Made by a program: the position numbers and the translations under genes | NCBI RefSeq assembly: GCF_002214385.1 | Contig: NZ_CP014855.1 | Location: 434,001 to 498,000, forward strand | Origin: Thermococcus gorgonarius | Lineage (GTDB): Archaea > Methanobacteriota_B > Thermococci > Thermococcales > Thermococcaceae | Direction: 5' to 3' | Length of the DNA stretch: 64,000 bases | The notes under the pieces: model-generated | Told to the model about the DNA's origin: nothing | Seen by the model: only the letters and a program-made list of their open reading frames with translations | The model's database searches: none | Shown here: positions 24,657-47,097 of the stretch, in pieces | How the letters are laid out: every line of letters starts with the position of its first letter | How positions within the stretch are numbered: position 1 is the first letter of the stretch

Positions 24657-24716
24657 CCGGCCGATGACGAGCGTTAGCCACGCTGAGCGGTGAGGAAAAG
24701 AGGGTTAGCTGAGGCT
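24657..24716 (+). ncRNA. C/D box guide RNA (candidate 1)
   Basis: The gap between gcvPB and the hydrolase contains a complete C/D layout: C box ATGACGA (24664-24670, one change from consensus), 12-nt guide, D' box CTGA (24683-24686), C' box GTGAGGA (24690-24696), 12-nt guide, D box CTGA (24709-24712). The flanks GCC and GGC can form the short terminal stem. Both guides have the 12-nt length typical of archaeal sRNPs, and a TATA box stands 25 nt upstream. Targets would be methylated at the base paired 5 nt from each D box. I did not identify the target with certainty. Confidence 0.75.
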
Positions 24717-34960: not shown

Positions 34961-35084
34961 TACGGCGGCCATAGCGGCGGGGTTACACCCGGTCTCGTTT
35001 CGATCCCGGAAGTTAAGCCCGCCTGCGTTCCCGGGTGTACTGCCCTCCGGGAGGGGGCGGGAAACCGGGAACGCCGCCGGCCAC
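34961..35084 (+). rRNA. rrf: 5S ribosomal RNA
   Basis: This 124-nt sequence begins TACGGCGGCCATAGCGGC and ends GCCGCCGGCCAC, so 5' and 3' ends pair in helix I. The loop segments CGAT and GGAAGTTAAGCCC are the conserved 5S core. The gene stands alone, not beside 16S and 23S, consistent with the separate 5S copy I recall for Thermococcales. Its exact 3' end may vary by a few bases. Confidence 0.95.
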
Positions 35085-44018: not shown

Positions 44019-45443
44019 TTATGGAACCTGGAAGATCCTCACGGTGTTTGTTCCAACAGTTTTTCCAACAGGTGCCCCCTTGGTAAGGAGCACGGTGTCG
44101 TCTTCCCTGGCAAGGCCGAGGCCCTTTATCAGGCTGATTATTTCGTTCTCGTCGTGGCTCTCAATAACAAATGGATACACCCCATAGCTGAACATCAACC
44201 CGTTGGCAACTTTCTCATCGCTCGTGAACGCGAGGATCCACTGCTTCGGCCTGAAGCGGGAGATCAGACGGGCGGTGTAGCCGCTTTTGGTGGGAGTTAG
44301 GATGTATTTGGCATCAACAACCTGAAGGGCCTCTATTATGCTCCTCGTGATGGCGTCCTTTATGGTCCCCTTCTTTGGGATTTTTTCCTTCCACTCCAGC
44401 ATTCTCACATTGCCAAAGCTTTCTCTGTATGCCTCTGTAGCCCTGGCTATCTTTGCCATCATCCTAACTGCATCAACGGGATACTTTCCAACGGCAGTCT
44501 CCTCGGAGAGCATAACCGCATCGGCACCGTCAAGTATTGCGTTTGCCACGTCCGTGACCTCGGCCCTGGTTGGGAGTTTCTCCACAGTCATGCTCTCAAG
44601 CATCTGGGTGGCCACTATAGTGGGTTTACCCGCCATTACAGCTTTCTCTATGAGCCTCTTCTGAAGAATGGGGAGCTTTTCAATGGGTATCTCGACACCT
44701 AGGTCGCCCCTGGCTATCATTACACCATCTGAGGCTGATAGTATCTCCTCGAAGTTCCTGATGGCATCAGGTCTTTCTATCTTTGATATCACAAACATCT
44801 TAGCCCCCTGCTTTTCAATGAAACTCCTAACCTTGAGAACGTCATAGGCAGAACCAACAAAACTGATTCCAACCGCATCCACCTCGTTTTCAGCCATGAA
44901 CCCGAGGATCTCAAGATCCTTCTCTGTCACGGCCTCCAGCGGAATTCGAGCATTTGGTATGTTTATTCCCTTGTGAGAGTACAGTACTCCTCCAACAATA
45001 ACCTTACAGACGACATCTGGCCCCTCTACTTTGACCACTTTAAGGACAATGAACCCATCGCTGAGATAGATAACATCGCCGGGAGATACAAGTTTGGGGA
45101 GGTCTTTGAACTCTACCGGGATTAATCCTTCCATCCCCTCAACGTCCCTTACTGTAAGGGTCACTGTCTGGTTGCGCCGGAGCTCGACCTTCCCTCCAAT
45201 TATATTTCCTACCCTTATCTTAACCCCCGGAAGATCCCCCAGTATCGCAACTCTGCGACCGAGACGTTCTGAAGCCCTTCTTATCTTCTCAATTCTCTTT
45301 TTGTGTTCCTCAAATGTGCCGTGCGAGAAGTTTATTCTGGCAACACTCATTCCAGCTTTTATCAGAGCTTCCAGCGTCTTAGAATCATCCGATGCCGGCC
45401 CAATAGTGGCAATGATTTTTGTCTTGTGTGAGGGTAGTCTCAT
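44019..45443 (-). CDS. pyk: Pyruvate kinase
   Basis: This 474-residue glycolytic enzyme makes pyruvate and ATP from phosphoenolpyruvate and ADP. TKIIATIGPAS and MSVARINFSHG are N-terminal signatures, ISKIERPDAIRNF contains the catalytic Lys, GVMIARGDLGVEIP the metal-binding Glu/Asp loop, and ATQMLESM and MLSEETAVGKYP follow. ATG at 45443 with GGTGAG upstream is a good start. A TATA-like TTAAAT lies some 35 nt upstream on the minus strand. I looked for a glycolytic motif upstream and did not find a convincing one. The gene borders the AT-rich desert at 45.4-47.1 kb. Confidence 0.97.
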   Translation of the reverse strand: MRLPSHKTKIIATIGPASDDSKTLEALIKAGMSVARINFSHGTFEEHKKRIEKIRRASERLGRRVAILGDLPGVKIRVGNIIGGKVELRRNQTVTLTVRDVEGMEGLIPVEFKDLPKLVSPGDVIYLSDGFIVLKVVKVEGPDVVCKVIVGGVLYSHKGINIPNARIPLEAVTEKDLEILGFMAENEVDAVGISFVGSAYDVLKVRSFIEKQGAKMFVISKIERPDAIRNFEEILSASDGVMIARGDLGVEIPIEKLPILQKRLIEKAVMAGKPTIVATQMLESMTVEKLPTRAEVTDVANAILDGADAVMLSEETAVGKYPVDAVRMMAKIARATEAYRESFGNVRMLEWKEKIPKKGTIKDAITRSIIEALQVVDAKYILTPTKSGYTARLISRFRPKQWILAFTSDEKVANGLMFSYGVYPFVIESHDENEIISLIKGLGLAREDDTVLLTKGAPVGKTVGTNTVRIFQVP

Positions 45444-47097
45444 GATATTCTCACCGACTTTTCTATTTTCATATTAGATTTAACTCTTTTTGGTGATGTC
45501 GTTTGGATTATCCATATCGTATTGTAAAATATATAATTAGATCTCCCTAACATTATTTCCAATGTATCTCGCGGAAAATACTGAGAATTGTTACTTTTAA
45601 TAATTGTATTTTCTATGAATTATCAATATTCATTGCTAGAAATAACTTTGTTTAGGTATAAAAATTGATAAATTCATTAGTTATATTATTAATTACTTAT
45701 AAAATTATTTTTACACACAATAGCCAACATTAAAAAATCCAAATTTTTTAATACTTTGATCAGTGATATTAACAAAACTTCACATTCGAAACCATGTAGA
45801 AGCGTCCCCAAACACATGTTCGTGGGGTCATGATATTTGTCATATGCTCCGGTCTTAACACCAAAATTTCATAATACTATTAAAGGTAGTTATAGGAGAC
45901 AAGTGATATCCCGAGAGAACGGTATATGTACGTATTGGGCCCCTGCGAGCCGTTGGTATCACAATACATCCATCAAAAAGACGCGTGTTTTTAATCTTCA
46001 TGGGCCTCACCAGGTAGGGCAGAGAAAGCTCTCCTTCTGGAGAGATACGCTAAGTTCTCCCAAACGGGCTGGTATCTATTCTGCTTGACTGAAACTTCAG
46101 GGGTCTCCAACTATAAGCTGTTTGGTCACTCAAATATCTGGCAGTGAACCAAGAAAACAAAACTCCTCCTTACCACACAAAAATCTCCCCCTTTTTATGT
46201 ATGTGTTTGTACATTAAATTTGGATATAATGTACCTTATATCCAAATTACACGAACATAAAAGTACATTAAATCGGGAGAAGGTGAACGCAACCTCGAAA
46301 GCGGATTGAAGTAATTCTAACCATCTAAACGGTAAATCAGTGCCCATTAGTTTGGAGGTGAGCTCTCGTGTCTTTGTGTCAAAGCCAAAACAGTGCTGTG
46401 GGCGACATCTCCCGTGTAAAGAAAGCCAGTTATAAATTGCTGCCGATGGCTGGAAGATATTAGAAGGATTGAGTTGTGATGTTGAGATTTAGTCTCTGGT
46501 GTAGGTCATAATACAAGGGGTCTAGTAAAATGCCGCTGACTCGGCCAGTCAGCTAAAGGCTCAGGGGGTATTAACATACTGTGGGCTGAGGGAATACACT
46601 AGCGCGCAATTTCAGTATCTACCCATCGCTTTGTCCTGATGGATACTCGTTGGACATCCCATCGGGGTATGCCAATCGCATTATAACCATCTTTAATTGT
46701 AACCCAATTTTGTGATAAAGATGCCGGCTCTTACAGTTCAAAAACCCGTGTCCTGGAAGGCTCGTGTGTTTCAGTGTTTCGAACCCCTGAACAGGGCCCA
46801 CCCCGCCCAAATAGCTATATACATTGTGCCAATATTACCACCCAACATAGTTGAAAATCAAAAAAATACTAATATTACTGATAGTAATTTCAATATAATC
46901 TGGTCTATACAACATATTAACAATTAGGAACTGTCCTAATACTAACTTATTAAAATATATAGGAAATTAGACATATTAGAAGTAATTTCATTAAAATTTC
47001 AAAAAGTCAAAATTCACTGAAAATTTTGAGAGTTGATCCACAGAATATAGAGAGAGCAAAAGAGCGAGAAAAAAGCCGGAAAAAGGCATTAAAGCCT
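45444..47097. other. AT-rich gene-free region
   Basis: This 1.65-kb gap between pyruvate kinase and purB has no convincing gene. The left part (45480-45790) is about three-quarters A+T, in sharp contrast to the flanks. The middle includes open stretches of 60-83 codons on both strands without ribosome sites or typical codon use. One short phrase on + near 46105-46145 (KLFGHSNI) resembles the C-terminal region of a tyrosine recombinase, but is too short to call. The stretch around 46353-46466 has GGAGGTG followed by GTG and 31 codons, of doubtful meaning. The strongest structure is the palindrome described at 46217-46248. It may be a remnant of an integrated element or lost genes. Confidence 0.6.
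46209..46273. repeat. 13-bp perfect inverted repeat with flanking direct repeats
   Basis: AATTTGGATATAA (46217-46229) and TTATATCCAAATT (46236-46248) are perfectly complementary 13-bp arms around the 6-nt spacer TGTACC. GTACATTAAAT occurs at 46209-46219 and again at 46263-46273. AATGTAC at the centre is the inverse of GTACATT at the left. The layered repeats are reminiscent of a regulator operator or a replication/partition site of an extrachromosomal element. Confidence 0.8.

Follow-up and report, generated by a model that had tools for sequence, protein, structure and literature searches.

A chromosomal dif site with mirrored boxes and conserved outer blocks in a gene-free region of Thermococcus gorgonarius

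Organization of the region between pyruvate kinase and purB

The stretch of T. gorgonarius DNA that was analysed, referred to here as the window, has a length of 64,000 nucleotides. The window genes for pyruvate kinase and adenylosuccinate lyase (purB) are separated by 1654 bp, and the longest open reading frame located wholly inside this gap has 83 codons for amino acids. A palindrome lies 774 bp from the pyruvate kinase gene and 850 bp from the adenylosuccinate lyase gene. The first-pass annotation, which saw no gene near the palindrome, was right in substance, as no gene is recognisable in this unusually long gap. The region contains the following features (window coordinates; dif, the boxes, and blocks B and C are described below):

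44019..45443, minus strand: pyruvate kinase gene (PF00224, E 3.7e-115), bounding the gap on the left, with transcription leading away from dif
45512..45752: left AT-rich stretch, GC about 0.17-0.28
45844..45892, minus strand: possible left copy of block B, weak (E 1.6e-4 in a looser run, lost in a stricter rerun)
45893..46190: left interval of the same kind as the right dif-to-B interval; its outer limit depends on the weak left B
46196..46202, minus strand: left outer box ATACATA, degenerate, at mirrored positions 31-37
46208..46212, minus strand: left inner box GTACA, at mirrored positions 21-25, overlapping the left copy of GTACATTAAAT
46219..46229, plus strand: dif left arm TTTGGATATAA, 0 mismatches to the dif pattern; perfect pairing reaches 46217
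46230..46235, plus strand: 6-bp dif spacer TGTACC, the putative strand-exchange region by analogy with Pyrococcus abyssi XerA
46236..46246, plus strand: dif right arm TTATATCCAAA; perfect pairing reaches 46248
46253..46257, plus strand: right inner box GAACA (consensus GNACA at 21 from the centre)
46263..46269, plus strand: right outer box GTACATT (consensus GNNCATT at 31), with which the right copy of GTACATTAAAT begins
46276..46683: right dif-to-B interval, of normal GC, with no recognisable gene and poorly conserved
46684..46740, plus strand: right copy of block B, in outward orientation
46832..47012: right AT-rich stretch, GC about 0.17-0.25
46995..47041, plus strand: right copy of block C, outward, found by profile; midpoint about 79 bp from the purB stop codon
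47098..48465, minus strand: adenylosuccinate lyase gene purB (PF00206 and PF10397), the right boundary, transcribed toward dif

Read directly from the sequence, the palindrome is composed of AATTTGGATATAA (46217-46229), TGTACC (46230-46235), and TTATATCCAAATT (46236-46248). No other perfect inverted repeat with arms of 13 bp separated by 0-20 nt occurs in the 64-kb window, and neither 300 dinucleotide-shuffled versions of 45444-47097 nor 12 shuffled versions of the whole window contained one. Two copies of GTACATTAAAT, at 46209-46219 and 46263-46273, are separated by 54 bp start to start, and there is no third copy in the window. The 13-bp arms, the 6-nt spacer, and the distance between the GTACATTAAAT copies are confirmed as they had been annotated.

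Identification of the dif site

The palindrome shares its 11-bp arms, 6-bp spacer, single copy, location away from the xerA gene, position in the second quarter from oriC, and AT-rich flanks of about 23 bp with the dif site of P. abyssi, as set out in the part of the published account considered here (Cortez 2010, PMC2958812). A dif pattern allowing up to three mismatches was matched at exactly one place each in 59 of 94 Thermococcaceae genomes. The single place in the T. gorgonarius genome has 0 mismatches, and the pattern run backwards as a control had no match in the 94 genomes. The loci of relatives used for comparison number 70, 58 from pattern-matched genomes and 12 from genomes matched by DNA search only. 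The dif left arm was compared with 69 other loci. A scoring scan of the 70 loci and the window placed dif in 70 of the 71, the miss being L098 (genome G046), a locus at a contig end. Eight further loci were selected for matches to B, C, or the element described below; dif was found in six of these, scoring 20 to 24 of 28 positions, and was not found on two short contigs. The weakest of the six, from G088, has an altered spacer. Overall, a dif counterpart was located in 76 of the 94 genomes. It was not located in the other 18, nine of which are listed as at least 90% complete (G009, G046, G056, G062, G065, G069, G078, G086, and G092). The draft contig that carries locus L058 (G051) stops one base past dif. 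The plasmid and viral collections contained no exact match to a 20-base dif pattern. The genes flanking dif differ among the 70 loci examined.

The T. gorgonarius genome contains one tyrosine recombinase, located 119 kb from dif. The XerA protein has 282 residues and scores 306.8 bits against the archaeal XerA model NF040815, for which the cut-off is 220. In the genome of 1,674,122 bp, dif is at 480,232 and cdc6, which marks oriC in these archaea, is at 1,619,691. The two are about 115 degrees, or about 0.53 Mb, apart, and dif is not opposite cdc6. In the covered part of the P. abyssi account, which gives oriC and cdc6 together, dif likewise lies at 120-142 degrees, not opposite, in four genomes (Cortez 2010, PMC2958812). 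According to the portions of two studies considered here, P. abyssi XerA binds and recombines dif (PMC2958812, PMC3646895), and it cleaves at the borders of the spacer (PMC3646895). By analogy with this biochemistry (Cortez 2010, Serre 2013), XerA of T. gorgonarius would be expected to recombine the site described here.

The identity of the palindrome as dif is well supported. Taken jointly with the readings of XerA, of the boxes, and of the boundary given below, its assignment as the chromosomal dif site of an archaeal Xer/dif system is close to certain. A recombination site had been one of the options of the first-pass annotation, and it is the one borne out by the geometry, the single copy, and the relatives. 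Uniqueness of the repeat, which in combination with a lack of binding had been regarded as a sign of chance or degenerate sequence, does not count against the site, as the repeat is single within each genome yet conserved across genomes. The site is known in kind (Cortez 2010).

Mirrored boxes beside dif

When the 139 sides from the 70 loci were pooled, two boxes were apparent on each side of dif: GNACA at positions 21-25 and GNNCATT at positions 31-37 from the dif centre, arranged as mirror images. Beyond about 43 from the centre, conservation falls to near background. The two boxes per side of the pooled profile provide the conserved AT-rich flanks of about 23 bp that are characteristic of dif. 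The motif GNACA occurs in the inner-box window on 100 of the 139 sides, compared with 12 for the control motif ACANG. Strict GNACA is present in the outer-box window on 46 sides (control, 10) and in both windows on 37. Thirty of the 139 sides are without any GNACA across the whole span; ten of these thirty lie at altered arms or element ends (L033, L035, L041, L050, L052, L069, L073, L075, L100, and L101).

In the window, three boxes match the consensus well, and the fourth, the left outer one, is degenerate. The layered symmetry that had been noted at the palindrome stands, with a refinement. The two GTACATTAAAT copies are real but not equivalent, since the left copy is formed by the inner box and the edge of the dif arm, whereas the right copy covers the outer box. 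The conserved pattern is mirrored, and the copies only look like a direct repeat because GTAC is self-complementary.

The 10-bp step between the boxes would set both of them on one face of the helix. The covered part of the P. abyssi account describes conserved flanks of about 23 bp, with inverted repeats that possibly bind a partner (Cortez 2010, PMC2958812). A partner protein most likely lands on the mirrored boxes, of which there are two per side, 10 bp apart, spanning about 86 bp in total.

Outer blocks B and C

Profiles from sliding 60-bp segments of the window, run against the 70 loci, revealed three islands of conservation outside the flanking genes: dif (70 loci), block B at +440..+500 (38 loci), and block C at +770..+830 (35 loci). 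The overlapping segment +740..+800 was found in 23 loci, and the other segments outside genes in at most 13, a number reached next to B. Reversed seeds found 0 loci throughout the scan. Seeds from five of six other loci regained B and C. Apart from dif and genes, seeds from the sixth, L070, which belongs to another genus, matched no more than 10 loci; dif seeds from L097, which has an altered arm, matched at most two.

Iterated profiles identified 59 copies of B in 44 loci and 71 copies of C in 45 loci. A looser run increased the number of B copies to 70 in 51 loci, including the weak left B of the window and, in genus g3, weak matches that resemble B in four loci (L083, L085, L087, and L088). 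The profile found C in the window on the purB side only, with no left copy. Both sides of dif are occupied by C in 26 of 45 loci and by B in 15 of 44. All 71 copies of C point outward, as do 45 of the 59 copies of B, the remaining 14 pointing inward. The spacing between B and C in 52 pairs has a median of 305 bp, a standard deviation of 29, and a range of 225-432, and 49 of the 52 values fall within 283-351 bp. The standard deviation of the dif-B distance in the same pairs is 146.

A B pattern with up to three mismatches had 48 matches in 36 of the 94 genomes, all within 1.2 kb of dif. The corresponding C pattern, which is stricter than the profile and does not reach the window's own C copy, had 31 matches in 25 of the 94 genomes. 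Of these matches, 29 lie within 0.91 kb of dif, and the other two are on contigs without a located dif. Weaker copies may occur elsewhere. The matches to both patterns are confined to one of six genera. Neither block was found by pattern in genus g3, which we take to be Pyrococcus, since G004 carries a dif identical to that of P. abyssi. The backwards controls gave one match for the B pattern (G012) and none for the C pattern.

The DNA between B and C is AT-rich and mostly unconserved in sequence, with a GC content of about 0.16-0.20 over about 150-170 bp just inside C. The AA/TT dinucleotides in the AT-rich stretches of relatives have a periodicity of 11-11.5 bp, with a power of 2.75 at 11.5 bp, calculated from 61 dereplicated stretches of 71. 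Shuffled sequences reached 1.28 +/- 0.16, the highest of 100 being 1.59, and other AT-rich DNA from the same loci had a weaker periodicity of 1.5-2.0 (n=28). The left and right AT-rich stretches of the window peak at different periods, with no clear common one. The runs of A and T in the AT-rich stretch on the inner side of C have no strand bias: the inward strand contains 136 runs of five or more T and 174 of five or more A, and 37 of 71 sides are T-rich.

Neither B nor C can be needed for strand exchange itself, because plasmids bearing only a dif oligonucleotide are recombined by P. abyssi XerA in vitro, as stated in the covered part of the study (PMC2958812). The same part of the P. abyssi account mentions neither block, nor the B-C spacing, AT-rich stretches, or any element in the interval beside dif. 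The outer architecture and the element described in the next section go beyond the Cortez 2010 text covered here (PMC2958812). Among the papers listed in literature searches with the starts of their abstracts, none evidently dealt with outer blocks or with elements that home to dif.

A two-gene element between dif and B in relatives

In comparisons of some close relatives, the homologous sequence ends within one of the dif arms and begins again at B. The sequences of L070 and L073 are homologous up to +9 and then again from +250/+558. The pairs L043/L100 and L090/L097 (left side) follow the same pattern of a break in the arm and resumption at B, and in L054/L101 and L054/L033 homology returns only at C. 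The replaced segment can hold two genes, which encode a nuclease-like protein and a second protein of about 116-150 amino acids. The open frames of the nuclease-like protein have 261 (L100), 276 (L069), 309 (L052), and 242 (L116) codons for amino acids. The two-gene element beside dif is located at:

L069, 1811-3027
L100, 1687-2854
L052, 2869-3798
L111, 2189-3340
L112, 2048-3182

A five-sequence alignment of the larger element protein contains an invariant D-x10-E-x-K pattern. This pattern is typical of PD-(D/E)XK nucleases, and our reading of the protein as nuclease-like rests on it. Comparison of the element proteins with Pfam, PADLOC, NCBIfam, and PDB sequences identified no convincing family, and the fold of one protein of the larger type predicted from sequence alone had a mean pLDDT of 34.7 and was unusable. 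The plasmid and viral collections contained no relative of the larger protein, and no recombinase gene was seen among the two genes of the element.

Copies or remnants of the element are present in 15 of the 70 loci at E below 1e-3, and a reversed-sequence control gave nothing below E 2. The element was also found in four of the eight further loci, which had been fetched for that reason. A tblastn-type search found the larger protein in eight of the 94 genomes, each time directly beside dif. Copies from different genera are up to 87% identical, which suggests that the element has spread horizontally.

An altered dif arm, TTGTCATATAA or TTTTCCTATAA, occurs in 10 of the 70 loci; including the further loci, the two types are distributed as follows:

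Arm TTTTCCTATAA: L033, L035, L041, L050, L101
Arm TTGTCATATAA or close: L073, L075, L091, L097, L100, L108-L113

The altered arm is mostly the one that faces the element or what remains of it. Locus L071 has a remnant with ordinary arms. In L109 and L110, the altered arm TTATATGACAA lies beside ordinary accessory boxes with no element match; therefore, the arm and the slot occupied by the element can become separated. The small gene of the element is open though the larger one is lost in L033, L101, L035, L050, L073, and L075, which suggests that it is retained by selection, for immunity or a host role. The retained small gene is located at:

L033, 2437-2787
L101, 3847-4197
L035, 3128-3580
L050, 2423-2848

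Neither tblastn, with E values up to 0.5, nor a profile search, with E values up to 5, detected a remnant of the element in the intervals of the window. Both dif arms of the window are of the common type, and a Xer-exploiting element at this locus was rejected as a candidate.

Alternative explanations

Block B could be the far end or a relic of a mobile element that targets dif and not an accessory site of the host. This is possible but on the whole unlikely. The stop codon of the small gene of L112 falls at the start of B, the end of the L100 reading frame overlaps B by about 13 bp, the protein match in L111 stops 8 bp before B, and homology returns at B after the replaced segment in some close pairs. 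However, C and the B-C interval are outside the replaced segment, B is present with tight B-C spacing on sides free of detectable remnants, including those of the window, and L069 has the element without a profile match to B.

According to another reading, which we consider quite unlikely, the gene-free region serves to terminate transcription from converging neighbours, with C acting at 3' ends and not in chromosome architecture. The midpoint of C lies about 70-95 bp beyond the stop codon of reading frames of purB size. For the other usual neighbour, with reading frames of mostly about 120 codons for amino acids that encode a DUF134 protein in the single one tested, the distance is about 117-126 bp. 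Because the same two neighbours recur, synteny and function are confounded in these two preferred distances of about 80 and about 120 bp. C is found mostly where the gene points toward dif: such sides have C in 55 cases and are without it in 19, whereas sides with a gene pointing away have it in 6 and are without it in 22 (with mechanical gene calls, and counting sides of at least 350 bp). C is also T-rich when read inward, but the AT-rich stretch inside C is without a bias for inward T-runs. At no other gene end does C occur with up to three mismatches where dif can be placed (29 of 31 matches). The conservation of C extends over about 35 bp, and an oligo-T terminator needs less than that. 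The termination reading also leaves B and the B-C spacing unexplained.

Transcription of the region into a structured non-coding RNA is very improbable. The apparent hairpins would suit such an RNA, as would the length of normal-GC DNA in which no gene is recognisable, but no Rfam family reached its gathering score in the region, where there were sub-threshold matches only. Folding gave z-scores of -0.33 to 1.09 for four stretches, with no RNA structure signal in the right or left dif-to-B interval, and the consensus fold of B came out empty on either strand, as did that of C on the plus strand, so that neither block has a conserved RNA structure in these tests. The interval sequences are, moreover, poorly conserved. 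Elsewhere in the window, and unrelated to dif, Rfam identifies a 5S rRNA (34961-35082, plus strand) and the C/D-box RNA sR34 (24660-24714, plus strand).

A plasmid-type or chromosomal replication origin, with the palindrome and repeats as initiator sites, is extremely improbable: there is no gene inside the region, the flanks are AT-rich, and the repeats are nested, but an archaeal origin would adjoin cdc6/orc1, which is distant here, the geometry is that of dif, the same site occurs once per genome in relatives, and the neighbours are pyruvate kinase and adenylosuccinate lyase. The earlier suggestion of a plasmid-type origin is thus not supported, and neither is that of an operator of a lost gene, given a site that is retained in most of the genomes beside varying genes.

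Proposed role of the dif locus

Homologous recombination would join sister chromosomes into a dimer with two copies of dif. XerA, bound as monomers to the 11-bp arms, would then cleave at either edge of the 6-bp spacer, and the ensuing strand exchange would yield two monomeric chromosomes. A partner protein bound to the mirrored boxes may hold or orient the synapse. The functions that we infer for B, C, and the slot element are as follows. Block B, the AT-rich DNA, and block C most likely constitute an insulating boundary module that keeps genes and transcription off dif. The module would position a chromatin or SMC barrier there, and this boundary model agrees with the reported stalling of SMC at dif by TrmBL2 in Thermococcus kodakarensis. 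A protein barrier combined with an effect of DNA structure at dif, as would apply in that system, would suit a gene-free locus with AT-rich flanks. Blocks B and C of the T. gorgonarius locus are candidates for the bound sequences.

The reaction and the geometry of the site are shared with bacterial XerCD/dif, which works with FtsK and KOPS, in the covered part of the P. abyssi account (PMC2958812). The bacterial system has two recombinases and FtsK, whereas the archaeal one has a single recombinase and no FtsK (same source and part). The window locus instead has accessory boxes and long-range flanking blocks.

The element of the relatives resembles integrative mobile elements exploiting Xer (IMEX) of bacteria, such as the CTX phage. 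The location at dif and the alteration of the adjoining arm are common to both. In contrast to IMEX, there is one dif-like site per locus in the scans used, and no recombinase gene was seen. The slot element instead carries genes for nuclease-like and small proteins, and its far end is at B in several cases.

A more comprehensive model, which we put forward tentatively as possible rather than probable, places the Thermococcus dif at the centre of a dedicated 1.6-kb architecture locus, in which the mirrored boxes are followed, on one side or on both, by B, phased AT-rich DNA about 170 bp long, and C at the edge. These parts might jointly replace FtsK in the pairing of sister dif sites, or might block SMC, RNA polymerase, or replication forks. 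The dif-B intervals would serve as slots in which a selfish element of two genes lands. It would replace one arm of dif with its own while keeping the site usable, and could spread between genera by nuclease-driven conversion of the dif-B interval.

In archaea, no equivalent of the bacterial Xer control has been identified, according to the part of a 2021 review considered here (PMC8371274). The boxes, B, and C are concrete conserved sequences tied to dif, and they make it testable how archaea that are without FtsK pair sister dif sites and bias XerA towards resolution. If the slot element is indeed a parasite that homes to dif, it would represent a new use of the chromosome resolution site.
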